Positions 35,099 through 42,372 of a stretch of DNA of 42,372 nt are shown here, one piece after another (the first letter of the stretch is position 1; every line of letters begins with the position of its first letter). This stretch comes from Nitrospirota bacterium. GTDB taxonomy: Bacteria; Nitrospirota; Thermodesulfovibrionia; Thermodesulfovibrionales; SM23-35. Where the stretch lies: positions 77,390-119,761 of the forward strand of contig JACAFE010000018.1 in assembly GCA_013388435.1 (NCBI GenBank), given 5' to 3'. Under the pieces are notes generated by a model. The model was not told the origin of the DNA. It did not search any database and saw only the letters and a program-made list of their open reading frames with translations. The position numbers and the translations under genes are program-made.

Positions 35099-35560
35099 TC
35101 ACTTCATATCCCAGTTTCTTATATCAGCATCCTTTCCTTCTCCACCTTCTTTTCCATCTGCTCCAAAACTTACTATATCAAAATCTCCATGAAGACCCGG
35201 ACACAAATAAAGATATGGATTGCCCCACGGGTCATCAGGAATGCTTTTTTGTTCAAGATAGCCACCCTGTCTGTATTTTTGAGGTATTCTGCCTGTTGTG
35301 GGTTGTTCAATGAGCGCCTGTAATCCCTGGGATGTTTCAGGGTAAAAACCATTATCAAGTTTATACAATTTAAGAGCTGTCTCAAAGTTTCTTATCTGAA
35401 TCTTTGCATCAGCAATTCTTGCATCATCAGTCCTGCCAATAATCTTTGGAGCAACTATTGCAGCAAGAAGTCCGAGTATGAATACGACTACAATTATTTC
35501 AAGCAATGTAAAACCTTTTTCAGTGTTGATAAGAAAATTACAGAATCCTGTTTTTTTCAT
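35099..35560 (-). CDS. gspG: Type II secretion major pseudopilin G
   Basis: A 153-aa major pseudopilin. Cleavage at EKG-FTLLEIIVVVFILGLLAA, then PKIIGRTDDARIADAKIQI and LKLYKLDNGFYPETSQGLQA. The C-terminal DPWGNPYLYLCPG and FGADGKEGGEGKDADI (calcium-binding loop) are diagnostic of GspG. It polymerises into the pseudopilus that pushes substrates through the secretin. ATG 35560 follows AGGAGG by 8 nt. A 247-bp gap with a small palindrome separates it from gspF, which could allow separate expression of this abundant subunit. Confidence 0.96.
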   Translation of the reverse strand: MKKTGFCNFLINTEKGFTLLEIIVVVFILGLLAAIVAPKIIGRTDDARIADAKIQIRNFETALKLYKLDNGFYPETSQGLQALIEQPTTGRIPQKYRQGGYLEQKSIPDDPWGNPYLYLCPGLHGDFDIVSFGADGKEGGEGKDADIRNWDMK

Positions 35561-35601
35561 TTATTATCCTCCTATTAAAAATCTCCGTATTGTCAAAACT
35601 T

Positions 35602-35644
35602 AACCACAGAGAACAAAGGGAAAAACTCTATGCCTTCTGTGGTT
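35602..35644. repeat. Palindrome AACCACAGA/TCTGTGGTT in the gspF-gspG gap
   Basis: AACCACAGA (35602-35610) pairs with TCTGTGGTT (35636-35644) across a 25-nt loop. The ACCACAGAG-type sequence is a common intergenic repeat of environmental bacteria. It lies about 40 nt upstream of gspG on the minus strand and could also act as a processing site that raises gspG over the upstream genes. Confidence 0.55.
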
Positions 35645-35807
35645 TCATATTCTCTCCTCTTTTTTCATGAAACTTTTGATATTACCAAGAATCTTTTTTA
35701 CTTCTTGTGTCATTCTCTGGACTGACCCATTAAAGTTTAAATGGATTTTCTGAGCGAGTCATGTAATGACATAGAAATAGATAGAAAAATTGAAAATAGG
35801 TCTTCCA

Positions 35808-36983
35808 TTATTTTATTAATTGGTTCATCTGGAAAATCGGCAAAAGAACTGCAAGAACTATTATACCAACTATGATGCCCATGCATAATATCATAAAAGG
35901 TTCAAGCAATGAAAATGCTCTACTTACTTTTCTCGAAAATTCTTCTTCATAAGCATTGGCAGCATTATTTAAAATGCCCGTAAGCTGTCCGCTTCTCTCT
36001 CCAGTAGCTATAAGTTGTAAAAGAACCGGCGGAAATCCTTCGAGAGAAGTTGATATTTTTGCGCCTTCAGAAACTTTTCTCCCACACGTTGTTACTTTCA
36101 ATTCAAGCTCTTTATTCCCTATGGCTTTTGCTGACAATTCAAGAGCTTTTAACATTGGCAAACCGCCTTCGAGTAAAAAGCTTAATGTTCTTGCAAAACG
36201 GCTATAATAAAGGCTTTGGATTATATTGCCGGGGAGTTTTAATATCAACCTGTCAAAATATATTTTATTACTTTGTTTTAGTCTTCTGAAAAGAAAAACC
36301 ATTGATAAAATAAGACCTGCAATAAGCCACCAGAATCTCTGAAATATATCACTTATAAAAATCAGGGCAATTGTTATAAATGGCAAAGCGCTATGTGTAT
36401 CTTTGAATATTTTTGTTATCTTCGGAAGGACAAAAGCAAAAATAAATGAAAGAACTATAAAACCAACACATATCATAAATACAGGATATATCATAGATGT
36501 TCTGACTTTTGCTTTTATGTTTTCACGACCTTCAAGAAAATCAGCGAGTTTTTTTAATACATTATCGAGTGTCCCGCTTGCTTCACCAGCCGCAATCATG
36601 TTTATGTAAAAATCAGGAAAAATGTTTTTGTAATCCTCAAGCGCTCTGGAAAAACTCGAACCACCTTTAATTTTCTCTTTTATATCAATCAATATATTTT
36701 TCCAGATACCCCTGCTTTCCTGTGAAATAGATGAAAGCGCATCTATCAGAGTTACGCCTGAAAAGAGCAGAGTTGATAATTGTCTCGTGATTTGCGGGAG
36801 CAAAGAAAGATCAATCTTTTTGAAAATACTTAATCTTTTTCTGTCGGCAGACTCACTGATACTCTTTGCATAAAGACCTGTTTCTTTAAGACGGATAACA
36901 GCATCTCTGTGACTGTTCGCTTCAATTGTACCTGAAATTTCAGAGCCGTCTGTTTTATAGCCTTTATACTGAAAGATCGGCAT
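35808..36983 (-). CDS. gspF: Type II secretion inner-membrane platform protein F
   Basis: A 391-aa polytopic protein. The N-terminal MPIFQYKGYKTDGSEISGTI is the classic GspF/PilC start. Two T2SSF cytoplasmic domains follow (about 55-190 and 260-385), with membrane helices at about 157-180, 208-226 and 360-382; PVFMICVGFIVLSFIFAFVL and GERSGQLTGILNNAANAYEE are family blocks. It overlaps the gspE stop by 20 nt and couples the ATPase to pseudopilus assembly. Confidence 0.95.
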   Translation of the reverse strand: MPIFQYKGYKTDGSEISGTIEANSHRDAVIRLKETGLYAKSISESADRKRLSIFKKIDLSLLPQITRQLSTLLFSGVTLIDALSSISQESRGIWKNILIDIKEKIKGGSSFSRALEDYKNIFPDFYINMIAAGEASGTLDNVLKKLADFLEGRENIKAKVRTSMIYPVFMICVGFIVLSFIFAFVLPKITKIFKDTHSALPFITIALIFISDIFQRFWWLIAGLILSMVFLFRRLKQSNKIYFDRLILKLPGNIIQSLYYSRFARTLSFLLEGGLPMLKALELSAKAIGNKELELKVTTCGRKVSEGAKISTSLEGFPPVLLQLIATGERSGQLTGILNNAANAYEEEFSRKVSRAFSLLEPFMILCMGIIVGIIVLAVLLPIFQMNQLIK

Positions 36984-38502
36984 AATCTTTCCGGGTGACC
37001 CTTAATACTTCTTCAAGAGTTGTAATGCCTTTAATTGCTTTTTCAAGACCATCGGTCCTTAATGTCTTAATTCCCTTTGACAGAGCATAGTTTTTTATTG
37101 TTTGAGAATCCATCTTTTCATTTATCATGTTGCGAATTTCATTGTCAATGACAAGAACTTCAAATATGCCTGTTCTTCCGATATAGCCTTTTTTGTTACA
37201 TTTATTGCAACCTTTACCTTTTGAAAGAGTAAATTCCTGCGCATGACCATTTATTATATCTTTTAAAAGAATTTTTTCTGTCTCTGAAGGGATATAGGTT
37301 TCCTTACAGTCAGGGCAAATTGTTCTGACAAGTCTCTGCGCAATAACAACCGAAAGAGAAGAAGAAATAAGGAAAGGCTCAATGCCCATATCTATTAGCC
37401 TTATAACAGCAGAAGGAGCATCATTGGTATGTAGAGTGCTCAGAACAAGATGTCCTGTTAATGATGCCTGCATCGCCATCTCAGCAGTTTCAATGTCTCT
37501 GATCTCGCCAACCATAATAATGTCAGGGTCCTGCCTTAGTATAGACCTCAGACCTGCTGCAAAAGTCAGACCTATCCTCGGATTAACCTGAACCTGACCT
37601 ATCCCTTTTAATTGATACTCAACAGGGTCTTCTACTGTAATTATATTTTTTTCTTCTGTGTGAACCCTGTTTAATGCAGCATAAAGAGTAGTGGTCTTTC
37701 CGCTTCCTGTTGGTCCTGTAACAAGAATAATACCGTCAGACCTTTGCAGATAACTTTCAACTTTTCTGCAATCATCGTCGCTGAAGCCAACTTCCCATAG
37801 TCCGAGCAAACCCTGCTTTCTGTCAAGCAATCTTAAAACAGCTCTTTCTCCATAGGAGGTTGGGATTACCGAAACCCTTATATCAATATCTCTTCCTGCA
37901 AGAAGAAGTCTTATCCTGCCATCCTGCGGCAACCTCTGCTCGGCTATGTCCAGATCAGCCATTATTTTTATCCTGCTTATTAAAGCATCCTGAATAATTT
38001 TGGGTGGAGATAATACATTATGAAGAATCCCATCCACTCTGAATCTGACTTCAAGGACTTTTTCATACGGCTCGATATGAATATCACTTGCCCTTTCTTT
38101 GACAGCCTGAAGGAGTATCGCATTCAAAAGCCTTATAATTGGAGCATCTTCTGTTAACTCGAGTAAGTCCTTTGGTGTCTCAAATTCTGTAGCAACAGCA
38201 GTGAGATCTTCTCCTGTAATAGTATCCATGACCTCTTCTGCTGAACCTAATTGTCCGTAAAATCTGTTTATAGCATTTATTATAATCTCATGTTTTGCTT
38301 TTAAAGCTTTTGGTTTTAAGCCAAGTGTGCGTGAGAGTTCAGCCAGGGCAAGCAACCCGGAATCATCATCAACCGCGCATATTAATTCCGAATTCTGAAC
38401 TTTGATAGGAAAAATATTATTACTCTTTACAAATCCAAGCGGAATATTTTTCAATAAGGACAATTCAACATCATCATCTTTTATTACATCAATTGTTTCC
38501 AT
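36964..38502 (-). CDS. gspE: Type II secretion ATPase E
   Basis: A 512-aa cytoplasmic ATPase from the ATG at 38502; an ATG at 38520 or a TTG at 38556 are alternatives, all inside the gspD end. An N-terminal GspE-N domain is followed by LNAILLQAVKERASDIHIEP, Walker A GPTGSGKT (263-270), the Asp box VEDPVEYQ, Walker B region DIIMVGEIRD and the His box SLTGHLVLSTLHTN. A zinc tetracysteine (Cys396, Cys399, Cys432, Cys435) is present. It powers pseudopilus assembly through GspL and GspF. Confidence 0.96.
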   Translation of the reverse strand: METIDVIKDDDVELSLLKNIPLGFVKSNNIFPIKVQNSELICAVDDDSGLLALAELSRTLGLKPKALKAKHEIIINAINRFYGQLGSAEEVMDTITGEDLTAVATEFETPKDLLELTEDAPIIRLLNAILLQAVKERASDIHIEPYEKVLEVRFRVDGILHNVLSPPKIIQDALISRIKIMADLDIAEQRLPQDGRIRLLLAGRDIDIRVSVIPTSYGERAVLRLLDRKQGLLGLWEVGFSDDDCRKVESYLQRSDGIILVTGPTGSGKTTTLYAALNRVHTEEKNIITVEDPVEYQLKGIGQVQVNPRIGLTFAAGLRSILRQDPDIIMVGEIRDIETAEMAMQASLTGHLVLSTLHTNDAPSAVIRLIDMGIEPFLISSSLSVVIAQRLVRTICPDCKETYIPSETEKILLKDIINGHAQEFTLSKGKGCNKCNKKGYIGRTGIFEVLVIDNEIRNMINEKMDSQTIKNYALSKGIKTLRTDGLEKAIKGITTLEEVLRVTRKDYADLSV

Positions 38503-40813
38503 CTTTAATCTTTGATTCATGATGTTGCATTTTAATAATATAATCTGGCTCGGCAAATTGAACTTCCTTATAATTCCCGAATTTCTCCGCTGCTTTTAGC
38601 ACATCCATATTTTCTTTCAGTTTTATCCTATATACACCTGTTGATTTTGACATGCTGATAATCGAGGCTTCTTCTAAAGTGAGTATTTCATTGATCCTTG
38701 CTTCACTTACACCTTCTTTGAACTTGACAAGCAATTCTCCCTGTTTAAATCTTTCCTCTGCTTTTGCGAATTCGGACTTCTTGCTTTCACTCAGCTTTTC
38801 AAGATTTTCTGATTCTTTGACAATATGGGGTGTAAGAAAAATTAAGAGATTGGTCTTCTTTTTTTCCTGTTTTTTATTCTTAAAAATCCAGCCCAATACA
38901 GGTATATCACCAAGTAAGGGTACTTTATTAATATTGACCTCTTCTTTTTCCTCCATAAGTCCGCCTATTACAACTGTCTGGCTGTCTTTAACAACAACCG
39001 AAGTCTTTGTGGAACGTTTTGTTGTGGTCGGACCAACATTAAGAATTATATTTTCTGTATCGCCTTTCAATGAAGATATTTCCTGATAGATTTCCATCTT
39101 AACATAATCACCTTCAGTTATCTGCGGGGTAAGCCTTAAGGTTATACCAACATCTTTCCTCTCTATAGAATTCAGGATTGTGCTTGATGTGGTAATATCG
39201 CGTTCTCTTTTTGATATAAAAGGAACATTTTCTCCAACTACTATCTCAGCTTCTTTATTATCGGATGTTAATATTTGAGGCGTGGAAAGAACATTTACAG
39301 CGCCTTTGAATTCATTCAGGCTGAAAAGCGCTGCGAATCCGGGGATTGTCAGAGTCGTTGTAGTTGTATTTACTGATGAATCTGTTGTTGTAACAGGAAT
39401 ATTAAGAAAATTGCCTATGCCACCCAGTGTCATACCGCTTAGTCCGTTAATTATATTGCTAACAGCGGATGCATCCATTTTCCCGAATCCACTTATAAAT
39501 ACCGGTTCATTATTTTTCTCAGCGGTTATTCTCCATTGAGCTCCGAGTTCTTTTAAATTGTCTATAGATGCCTCTACAATCATTGCCTCAACATAAACCT
39601 GTTTTCTTCTTCTGTCGAGTTGTTTTATTACCTGCATTATATTCTGATAATCAGCAGGCGGAGCAACTATAATCAATGAATTTGTAGCTTTATCAGGTGA
39701 TATTATGATCTTCCCGGATTCAAAAGGTCCTTTAATATTTTGCGGAGCCTGTACTGCCTGGGATACTTTTACCTGTGAAATTCCAGAAATCATTCCTTCG
39801 AGAACTTTTGAAAGCTCGGTTGCATCAGCATATTCAAGGAAATAGACATTGATTTTACTTGTTGCTTCAGGCATTGGTATATCAAGGAGTTTTATCATTC
39901 TCTTTATTTCTTCTTTTTCCTGTTTGCCCGCGATCATTATAATCGCATTCAATCTTGTATCCGCAAAAATATTAGGTCGGGTTTCATCAATTGATACTCC
40001 AGATACTGTTTCACCTCTTAAAGGAGGTCTCACTCCTACAGTTGGAGCCTGAGATTTTGTTACCGTGGAGATGGATTCATTTAACATTTTGACGATTTCT
40101 TCTGCAGATGCATATTTGAGCATGATAAGTTCGGGCTCTTCAATATCCTGTTTATCTATGCTTTCAATTATCTTCATTACTTTTTCGATATTGGCAGAGG
40201 AATCAACAATCAGAAGCATATTTCCCGGTCCGTATGAAGAAATATGCCCGTCTTTAGATATAAGAGGCTGGAGAAAATTCATTGCTTTTGTGCTTGAAAT
40301 AGAATTCAACTGTATAATCCTTGTTATATAAGTATCGTTAACCGCTGCATTTTCGTCTTTTATTAATTCTGTGCTGGATTGTCTCGCCTGTGAAAGGGGA
40401 ACTATTTTATATACTTTACCCATCTGAATAATCGTAAAGCCTTTTAATTCAAGTACAGATGTAAACAAACTGAAAGCGTCCTCAACAGATAACTTTGAAG
40501 GTGCAATAATAGTAACAGTGCCTTTAACCTTATCATCAAAAACAAAATTTTTGCCTGTCACTTCGCTTATGAATTTCACAACTACGGGGATATCAACATC
40601 TACAAAATTAAAGGTAACCTTTTTTTCTTTAGTCTTCTGAGCATCCTTTTCTTTTGTTTTAATATCTTTGATAGCAGATGTTTGACTGTCCATTGAAAAT
40701 GAAGAAGGATGAATTATCAAGGATAAAATTAAGACCGAGGAAAAGATAAAAACTGAAAGATGAACAGAAAAGGTCTTTTTTATAAAAGCTTTTATATATA
40801 AAAAGATACTCAT
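38489..40813 (-). CDS. gspD: Type II secretin GspD with C-terminal subtilase-propeptide-like domain
   Basis: A 774-aa outer-membrane secretin. An N-terminal signal-like segment (about 15-40) precedes N0 (about 65-140, VTFNFVDVDIPVVVKFISEV) and N1-N3 domains (about 160-400). The secretin barrel domain (about 405-668) carries NVLSTPQILTSDNKEAEIVV, VGITLRLTPQI and VPLLGDIPVLGWIFKNK. After a charged linker (about 670-690) comes the oddity: residues 692-761, GELLVKFKEGVS to EVQFAEPDYIIK, a fervidolysin/subtilase propeptide homologue. This domain aligns without gaps to the propeptide of the subtilase in the same operon (about 27 of 70 identical by hand). It stands where other secretins have the pilotin-binding S-domain. 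The frame is intact, overlapping gspE by 14 nt. Confidence 0.96.
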   Translation of the reverse strand: MSIFLYIKAFIKKTFSVHLSVFIFSSVLILSLIIHPSSFSMDSQTSAIKDIKTKEKDAQKTKEKKVTFNFVDVDIPVVVKFISEVTGKNFVFDDKVKGTVTIIAPSKLSVEDAFSLFTSVLELKGFTIIQMGKVYKIVPLSQARQSSTELIKDENAAVNDTYITRIIQLNSISSTKAMNFLQPLISKDGHISSYGPGNMLLIVDSSANIEKVMKIIESIDKQDIEEPELIMLKYASAEEIVKMLNESISTVTKSQAPTVGVRPPLRGETVSGVSIDETRPNIFADTRLNAIIMIAGKQEKEEIKRMIKLLDIPMPEATSKINVYFLEYADATELSKVLEGMISGISQVKVSQAVQAPQNIKGPFESGKIIISPDKATNSLIIVAPPADYQNIMQVIKQLDRRRKQVYVEAMIVEASIDNLKELGAQWRITAEKNNEPVFISGFGKMDASAVSNIINGLSGMTLGGIGNFLNIPVTTTDSSVNTTTTTLTIPGFAALFSLNEFKGAVNVLSTPQILTSDNKEAEIVVGENVPFISKRERDITTSSTILNSIERKDVGITLRLTPQITEGDYVKMEIYQEISSLKGDTENIILNVGPTTTKRSTKTSVVVKDSQTVVIGGLMEEKEEVNINKVPLLGDIPVLGWIFKNKKQEKKKTNLLIFLTPHIVKESENLEKLSESKKSEFAKAEERFKQGELLVKFKEGVSEARINEILTLEEASIISMSKSTGVYRIKLKENMDVLKAAEKFGNYKEVQFAEPDYIIKMQHHESKIKDGNN

Positions 40814-40875
40814 AATTTGTCTATTTTAGCATCAAACAACATTTCAAGTCAGCATTATAAATAAAGATTTATATC

Positions 40876-41060
40876 TTAACCCAAATAATACATACATAAT
40901 TAATAGTTAATGGTTAATAATATTATCATCTGTCTATAACTCATTTTATGAACCAAAATCACGGGTTGATTTTTCAATAAAACCAGAGCTCATACTTCAG
41001 GCTTCAGCCTTTTTTTATTTCGCAATATCTCCATTATTTCTATGCATTTTTGGTTAACTC
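40876..41060. repeat. Decayed copy of the dispersed repeat between gspC and gspD
   Basis: At 40936-40974, ATAACTCATTTTATGAACCA and onward matches 35 of 39 positions of the MITE-like end at 20581. At 41022, GCAATATCTCCATTATTT matches 16 of 18 positions at 20786. At 40876, TTAACCCAAATAAT is the inverse of the motif at 20795. AGCTCATACTTCAG at 40987 recurs at 42125. It fills most of the 282-bp gap inside the T2SS operon. Confidence 0.65.
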
Positions 41061-41095
41061 GATGATTAAGTCTTAAACCAAAATTAAGCATGACT

Positions 41096-41971
41096 CTATT
41101 TAATTTGATAATTCATTGTCATTCTCGAGCCTGCCCTGATTAAATCTATCTCAACCCTGTCAAGTCCTTTAAGAGCTGTAAGCGCCTGCAATGCCACTTC
41201 AGGATTTGATATTTCATATTCATTGATTTTTAAAAGCACATCTCCATCCTGAAGTCCCAGACTTTGATAAATACCTCCTGGTTTTACTTCACTTAGAATA
41301 AACCCTCCTGTTCTTCCGTTTGATGAATTTGGTTTGAGTCTTGCGTCTGTCATTATCTGTGATGGATTTGCTATTATTTGCTGGAGCTTTGTCTGATCAA
41401 CTATATAAGAACTTCTGCCAACCCTTTGAGTAAATCCTGTGACTCCCAATGTTTGAGAAGATTGGGTTGACTTTATTTCTCTAACTTTTACAATGTCCTC
41501 AATCGGCAATTCTTTTACACCTTCGCTACTTTGTATTAAGACCTTATCCTTTTTAACACTATGGAGCTTTCCTGCTCCAAAAACTGAATCTCCTATCTTG
41601 AATATTTCCTGTATTCCTGAATTGTTTCTGAATATTGCATAACTTAGCTCTTTAGGACCCGATACAGTTCCAATTAATGTAAAATTCATCTGCTGTACAG
41701 CAGGCATTGACGAAGCTGTTAATTGTTTCAACTCACCTGTTTGAATTCCAAAAATATTATTTTTCATTAATGGAGCATATTCAATAAATTGAGTGGTAAT
41801 TTGTGAGAAAGACTGCTGAGCTGCATTAGAAGTGTCGTTTTTCAAACTTTTTTTATTCTGAAATTTATATGTAATGATGTCTCTGACAAAAGTCAGGATT
41901 AAAACTAAAAGAACTATTCCGAGAATAAAATTTATACGATTTAAAGGTTTTTTGTTTATAAAACTATGCAT
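41096..41971 (-). CDS. gspC: Type II secretion protein C with PDZ domain
   Basis: A 291-aa bitopic inner-membrane protein, first gene of the T2SS operon. It has a cytoplasmic start, a membrane helix (about 13-31, INFILGIVLLVLILTFVRDI) and the HR domain at about 65-165 (PLMKNNIFGI, FTLIGTVSGPKELSYAIFRN, IFKIGDSVFGAGKLHSV), which contacts N0 of GspD. A C-terminal PDZ domain at about 205-290 (GGFILSEVKPGGIYQSLGLQ, DGDVLLKINEYEI) is thought to take part in substrate choice. ATG 41971 has no ribosome site. A TATAAT-like -10 at 41983-41988 would give a nearly leaderless mRNA, with no good -35. The gap to gspD (282 bp) is filled by a repeat. Confidence 0.93.
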   Translation of the reverse strand: MHSFINKKPLNRINFILGIVLLVLILTFVRDIITYKFQNKKSLKNDTSNAAQQSFSQITTQFIEYAPLMKNNIFGIQTGELKQLTASSMPAVQQMNFTLIGTVSGPKELSYAIFRNNSGIQEIFKIGDSVFGAGKLHSVKKDKVLIQSSEGVKELPIEDIVKVREIKSTQSSQTLGVTGFTQRVGRSSYIVDQTKLQQIIANPSQIMTDARLKPNSSNGRTGGFILSEVKPGGIYQSLGLQDGDVLLKINEYEISNPEVALQALTALKGLDRVEIDLIRAGSRMTMNYQIK

Positions 41972-42028: not shown

Positions 42029-42167
42029 AAAAATGCAATTGAATTATTGCCATTTGATTATGTTATTAGTTTTTTGCCGTGATTCATAAACTACAAACTA
42101 TGAGCTTTTTTTACTAATTAGCAAAGCTCATACTTCAGCCTTCAGCCTAAAGCCTTCAGCCTTTTTT
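42029..42167. repeat. Further fragments of the dispersed repeat family
   Basis: At 42037-42069, 31 of 33 positions match the right end and flank of the MITE-like element (20726-20758), including ATTGCCATTTGATT. At 42125, AGCTCATACTTCAGCCTTCA repeats the sequence at 40987 and continues into tandem CTTCAGCCT units up to 42167. No gene was found in the whole gap from 41972 to the window end. Confidence 0.65.
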
Positions 42168-42180
42168 GCTCTTCGCTAAT

Positions 42181-42200
42181 TCCCCCTTTGTTAAGGGGGA
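42181..42200. repeat. TCCCCCTT/AAGGGGGA palindrome
   Basis: TCCCCCTT (42181-42188) pairs with AAGGGGGA (42193-42200), followed by a further TTAAGGGGG. Related to 15797-15818. Confidence 0.65.
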
Positions 42201-42218
42201 TTAAGGGGGTTGTATATT

Positions 42219-42242
42219 AAACGCTATAAACGCTATAAACGC
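42219..42242. repeat. AAACGCTAT 9-bp direct repeats
   Basis: AAACGCTAT occurs at 42219 and 42228 in tandem, with a partial third copy at 42237, and again at 42362-42370 on the other side of the hairpin array. Confidence 0.7.
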
Positions 42243-42260
42243 AAAAAACAGTTTGATAAA

Positions 42261-42352
42261 TTCCAGTCGCCAGAGCGACTAACTTCCAGTGCCGTTTTTC
42301 GGCACTCAATTCCAGACCCGCAAAGCGGGTCTCACTTCCAATGCGAAGCATT
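42261..42352. repeat. Tandem array of four small hairpins with a constant TTCC linker
   Basis: Units start at 42261, 42284, 42310 and 42336. Each is TTCC followed by a perfect stem-loop and a 3-nt A/C spacer. The stems differ: AGTCGC/GCGACT, AGTGCCG/CGGCACT, AGACCCGC/GCGGGTCT and AATGC/GCATT, with loops of 3-5 nt. Unit lengths are 23, 26 and 26 bp. No frame crosses it with coding character. It may continue past the window. Confidence 0.8.
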
Positions 42353-42372
42353 AAATTTGATAAACGCTATAA

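Follow-up and report, generated by a model that had tools for sequence, protein, structure and literature searches.

The window, by which we mean the whole analysed stretch of 42,372 nucleotides of the Nitrospirota bacterium genome (G000:C71:77390-119761), ends on the final base of its contig. Type II secretion genes are found on the minus strand at 35099-41971, with the Pfam families T2SSG, T2SSF, T2SSE, Secretin and T2SSC, and a hairpin array sits upstream of the T2SSC gene. This array occupies 95 bases (42261-42355) and consists of exactly four head-to-tail units on the plus strand, each made of TTCC, a perfect hairpin with an A-T closing pair and a 3-nt A/C tail. Unit 1 (42261..42283) carries the hairpin AGTCGC-CAGA-GCGACT and the tail AAC, unit 2 (42284..42309) AGTGCCG-TTTTT-CGGCACT and CAA, unit 3 (42310..42335) AGACCCGC-AAA-GCGGGTCT and CAC, and unit 4 (42336..42355) AATGC-GAA-GCATT and AAA. 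The stems of units 1-4 measure 6, 7, 8 and 5 bp with the A-T closing pair counted, and the loops 4, 5, 3 and 3 nt, which gives hairpins of 13-19 nt in units of 20-26 nt. The first stem pair is A-T in all four units, the second in unit 4 only. Four consecutive TTCC hairpins with an A/C spacer, perfect pairing and an invariant A-T closure had already been described by a sequence-only reading of this DNA, and the description is borne out over the array.

The direct repeat TTTGATAAA abuts the array on both sides of the plus strand, at 42252..42260 on the left, where it is near-constant across copies, and at 42356..42364 on the right; from copy to copy both repeats mostly keep nearly one sequence. 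Outside them lies the host array, a degenerate 9-bp minisatellite of AACGC with T/A-rich linkers in the same strand direction. Its left part, of the form AACGC(T/A)ATA, spans 42219..42245 with AACGC at 42220, 42229 and 42238 (Tandem Repeats Finder reports 42218-42242, period 9). On the right its first part spans 42363..42372, with AACGC at 42363, and is cut by the contig end. Dispersed modules, namely CTTCAGCCTTCAGCC repeats and the CCCCCTTTGTTAAGGGGG palindrome, are observed nearby at 42120-42212; they recur near several AACGC arrays with and without the cassette, as we call the block of four units, and a near copy of the CCCCCTTTGTTAAGGGGG palindrome is present in genome G006.

Folded as single-stranded DNA, the array region forms exactly those four hairpins at -25.6 kcal/mol (z = -6.7), against -9.7 +/- 2.4 kcal/mol for shuffled sequences, none of 200 being as good. 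The RNA fold is also stable on either strand (z = -4.7 on the plus and -3.5 on the minus strand; 0/200 shuffles as good on each). The step from TTCC through a hairpin and three nucleotides to the next TTCC is found four times in the real window, three of them within the array, and three times in total when the window was simulated 100 times with a first-order Markov model.

The array is not unique. An exact search with the 27-mer of unit 1 gave 23 occurrences in the 2.15-Mb genome and none for the reversed-pattern control, and the last 163 bases of the window gave 78 matches at E up to 0.01. The hairpin core itself is present in 36 distinct copies, obtained from 38 BLAST rows after extraction and duplicate removal, with cores 91-100% identical to that of the window and array lengths that vary between copies. 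All four hairpins stand in identical order in 30 of them; five copies are cut by contig ends, and one, on contig C37, is truncated to unit 4 and the end of unit 3. The sequence-only reading had supposed that the array may run past the window, but other copies end after four units. Seventeen of the 36 copies lie at contig ends, with one flank shorter than 60 bases, which makes the repeat one likely cause of the broken assembly; the other 19 have longer flanks on both sides. The looser pattern TTCCA..TTCCA matches 345 times in the genome versus 149 for its reversed control, and no different cassette was seen by eye among the matches listed (the first ~100 of 345). The block is an interspersed, non-coding repeat: four palindromes, each tagged with TTCC, form one cassette.

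The copies are apparently intergenic. The core is free of any kept ORF of at least 80 aa in 30/36 copies, and the ORFs of 82-125 aa that overlap the remaining six were judged spurious. Genes to the right point + in 14 cases and - in 14, those to the left + in 8 and - in 13, the remaining copies having no ORF on that side of the retrieved stretch. Across the 36 copies no clear orientation bias of the cassette with respect to neighbouring ORFs is observed, on which ground a terminator or UTR element was rejected; the sequence-only reading had also found the array unlike a terminator. Relative to the AACGC arrays the orientation is constant: the flanking arrays and the TTCC strand share one orientation. 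With the variants AACTC, AACAC and AATGC included, AACGC-type units stand left of the cassette in 25 of 26 copies and right of it in 30 of 30, among copies that have 50 or more bases of flank; the single copy without a left unit is that of locus L057.

The AACGC arrays outnumber the cassette. Three-unit matches, overlapping ones included, number 439 in the genome against 43 for the reversed control, and arrays without cassette are found in at least six places (C6, C10:1961, C18, C27, C38 and C44). Array matches are found in four of eight genomes searched (own 439, G006 19, G003 1, G009 1), and none in the other four (G001, G002, G008 and G015). In G006 such arrays occupy several loci, and the cassette was not found in that genome; at one of these loci (L308:1-280) the arrays are broken up by AACAGTTTTTTATGAACGC and similar sequences, and AACAGTTTTTTATGAACGC resembles the left edge of the cassette, AACAGTTTGAT. 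A search for empty sites, in which both cassette edges are kept and the cassette is missing, gave 47 matches at up to three mismatches (reversed control 22); its non-cassette matches look like chance and no convincing empty site is among them, so that insertion of the cassette is not directly seen. A MITE would have terminal inverted repeats and a target-site duplication; by eye the cassette shows no inverted ends, and the direct repeats TTTGATAAA at its sides hardly differ among most copies. To be noted, contig C37 with the truncated copy carries the single Y1_Tnp gene of the genome (IS200-like, 215 aa, L094:1333-1980), with the hairpin CTTGCACTTCGGAAGTGCAAG just upstream.

Variation between copies is limited. 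The first core of L043 has an indel and was set aside; the 35 ungapped copies carry 32 substitutions, of which 12 hit paired and 20 unpaired positions. This difference is not significant (Fisher p = 0.075, with 33 copies as denominator), and with identical changes collapsed the counts are 12 and 12; a lower mutability of stems relative to unpaired positions is not clear. Six of the 12 paired substitutions give G-T on the TTCC strand, one gives A-C, three break a pair, and the last two together make up a compensated double change, G>A/C>T, at one pair of unit 2 (L051). The wobble asymmetry, six on the TTCC strand versus one on the other, is likewise not significant (binomial p = 0.125). In L049 unit 3 has the loop TTT instead of AAA, which makes its hairpin the in-place reverse complement of the usual one. 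Among all 36 copies there is one such double change and one such loop inversion. An alignment of 21 of the 36 copies has standard pairs in 99.5% of pair cells and changes on both sides in 1/26 pairs, a value reached by 30 of 500 shuffles. Within-genome covariation is therefore weak.

In a phylum-wide sample of 395 genomes, convincing TTCC hairpin arrays were found in our genome and in G015, a member of the same family, only, by search patterns that fix much of the unit grammar and may let other array forms escape. Three patterns matched 4, 37 (judged on the matches listed) and 2 of the 395 genomes; the two genomes hit by the first pattern besides our own and G015 have no hairpin by eye. The same-genus genome G001 gave no cassette in the pattern searches. 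The array of G015 (contig C24) reads TTCC-AGCCGAAGGCT-CAC-TTCC-AATGCGAAGCATT-CAA-TTCC-AGCGAAGCT-CAC-TTCC-AATCCGAAGGATT-CAC, and about 100 bases further a shorter piece ends in TTCC-AATCCAGAGGATT-AAA-TTTGATTAA, with TTTGATTAA at the place matching the right direct repeat of the window. Both G015 arrays lie between ORFs (L129, G015 C24:1-3000), upstream of an ORF that by eye resembles GDP-mannose dehydratase, and adjoin degenerate short repeats (the 7-bp TATCCAG, another repeat than that around our cassette, and AACCAGA). The contig is only 3.3 kb long and may be misbinned. Tag, A-T closure and tails are alike in the two genomes, while the stems (AGCC/GGCT, AATGC/GCATT, AGC/GCT and AATCC/GGATT in G015) are mostly different; AATGC-GAA-GCATT, the hairpin of our unit 4, is also present in the G015 array at a different position.

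These data bear on further claims of the sequence-only reading. It had named a single copy in the genome without structural conservation in relatives as the outcome that would speak for chance or an assembly artefact; we found 36 copies, and in G015 the same grammar with other stems. Its view that the stems are unrelated holds when one unit is compared with another or one genome with the other, but the stems are near-identical across the 36 copies of our genome. Its proposal that structure and not sequence is maintained stands only in part: within the genome structure and sequence are alike near-constant, and covariation is weak, with both sides changed in a single pair of 26. A protein-binding scaffold, another of its suggestions, would be a conceivable role, as would a structured RNA.

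Outside our genome and G015, a hairpin filter over the fetched loci, which skipped stems already seen, left weak chance cases only. A scan of named relatives' contigs gave 11 loci with no hairpin array in their surroundings by eye. Four scans of viral contigs gave, in turn, three loci without array, at least 120 loci of which the hairpin filter left two weak chance cases, no match, and four loci in which no hairpin was seen; a distant blastn search of plasmids and phages had no match. In G089, of the same order, a 31-bp tandem repeat (L295:1474-1583) carries near-identical hairpins GGCGTCC-GAATT-GGACGCC with ACTTTTATTTCCA between them, so that TTCC stands before and CAC after most hairpins. 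It is a repeat of another kind, possibly a convergent or related design.

Our best reading is that the cassette represents REP-like TTCC-tagged palindromes that hitchhike in dispersed minisatellites. Recent recombination or gene conversion between dispersed AACGC arrays would have spread the copies, the arrays providing homology on either side of the cassette. Copies that keep one orientation and reside in arrays, loci with arrays alone and the failure to find an empty site fit recombination better than classical transposition. An array built by recombination, as the sequence-only reading had proposed, is still the best reading, although we only infer it. At the replication fork, single-stranded DNA would fold into the hairpins, and a polymerase that switches template from arm to arm could keep or remake perfect stems and sometimes invert loops. 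According to PMC8794818 and PMC8604942, template switching yields homogenised arms, compensatory changes and inverted loops; the double change of L051 and the inverted loop of L049 are typical of it. Over longer times the same process would permit wholesale stem change while the unpaired TTCC tag and the tails stay. Stem perfection is best read as kept at least partly by template switching, and the cassette may be neutral or selfish. To spread by recombination between arrays combined with template-switch upkeep of the stems we give an even chance.

Other explanations of the spread have to be weighed against this one. A REP-like element moved by a HUH (Y1/RAYT) transposase for single-stranded DNA, with the TTCC tag and the hairpin foot as its recognition site, would agree with the unit design, in which a tetranucleotide beside a hairpin, an A-T first pair and a 3-nt tail resemble the GTAG/CGTC REPs of PMC3733652, and with the use of a tetranucleotide and a stem-loop by REP enzymes reported in PMC8266576. 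Our genome does contain one Y1_Tnp gene (C37:1698-1970). However, even the truncated copy on C37 lies 11 kb away from this gene, cassette matches on that contig beginning at 13003, and Y1_Tnp is found in 17 of 20 genomes searched (our own and 19 relatives), including the cassette-free G001. Gene presence does not track the cassette and a transposase link was rejected; the tag here is TTCC and the units are head-to-tail, so we consider this explanation unlikely. Joint dispersal of the cassette and the AACGC arrays as one mosaic element, with the cassette-free arrays as deletion products, would equally give the fixed orientation within arrays, and it draws further on the truncated cassette of C37 and on outer modules such as CTTCAGCC and CCCCCTTTGTTAAGGGGG, which are common to arrays with and without cassette. 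But G006 has its AACGC arrays at several loci with no cassette found, and we regard the mosaic as improbable. In a further, modular reading, the array would gain or exchange TTCC palindromes one unit at a time in a fixed register, tag and tail being the recognition sites of a putative single-stranded DNA enzyme that builds head-to-tail arrays and targets minisatellites. If that were true, G015 and our genome would hold two compositions of one system; we rate it as doubtful.

A structured RNA or an RNA-level regulatory scaffold would be consistent with the stable fold on either strand and with the wobbles, kept as G-U six times on the TTCC strand and once on the other (p = 0.125). Against it stand the inconstant place and orientation relative to genes, the weak covariation and the absence of the cassette from the one same-genus genome. 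Rfam gave no match to the array, with 0 matches at gathering scores and, at E up to 1, one chance-level match outside the array; it lends no support to a structured RNA family, and such a role is rather improbable. The contig-end position of 17/36 copies could point to chance or an assembly artefact, but the 19 copies with longer flanks on both sides have different neighbouring ORFs, and the single-stranded fold is far from that of shuffles (z = -6.7). Those 19 copies already refute this explanation, whose probability is close to nil.

Recombination-driven spread with template-switch upkeep remains our preferred reading, and the cassette can be compared with known systems. A CRISPR array has identical repeats and unique spacers; here the constant part is 4-7 nt, with palindromes between, the same at all loci, and the sequence-only reading was right to call the array not CRISPR-like. 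TIGR arrays (PMC12045711) were set aside because the same four hairpins occur in all copies. A limited literature search gave no description of TTCC-tagged head-to-tail hairpin arrays. REPINs are inverted REP pairs. REPIN and BIME mosaics (PMC3116915 and PMC2817692) are similar as composite intergenic repeats of palindromes, but in BIMEs the REPs alternate in orientation (PMC2817692) while the cassette units all point one way. Mitochondrial double-hairpin or palindromic mobile elements are likewise small, dispersed and palindromic, but belong to organelle DNA. Template-switch-made hairpins share perfect stems, changes in both arms and inverted loops with the cassette; in PMC8794818 they are a mutation process rather than a repeat family.

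The closest likeness is to the GTAG/CGTC REPs. In PMC3733652 these are short palindromes beside a conserved unpaired tetranucleotide, present in many, mostly extragenic copies, with stems that vary between families and between dimer partners; in CGTC REPs the first pair is A-T and the 3-nt tail is mostly CCA. Of this CGTC trait, with A-T at stem positions 1 and 2 and a 3-nt tail, the cassette shows the first pair in 4/4 units, the second in 1/4 and the tail in 4/4. The REP tag is GTAG or CGTC, or a listed variant, and the cassette tag is TTCC in 4/4 units. REPs are mostly singletons or inverted (HH/TT) dimers, and PMC3733652 gives head-to-tail dimers as absent, under-represented or negligible, whereas the cassette is a head-to-tail tetramer of four unlike stems. 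A GTAG REPtron has a RAYT gene flanked by the repeat; no linked transposase was found for the cassette, which moreover sits inside a minisatellite, unlike these REPs. As it departs in tag, arrangement and transposase link, we do not file the cassette as a REP family member, and by this comparison it is a REP-like variant closest to the CGTC REPs. If template switching and not selection keeps the stems, the many parallel copies in one genome would allow the process to be measured, as a test of hairpin origin and persistence. To the bacterial tagged palindromic repeats the cassette adds a TTCC-tagged, head-to-tail, multi-stem design, and it ties tagged palindromes to dispersed minisatellites.
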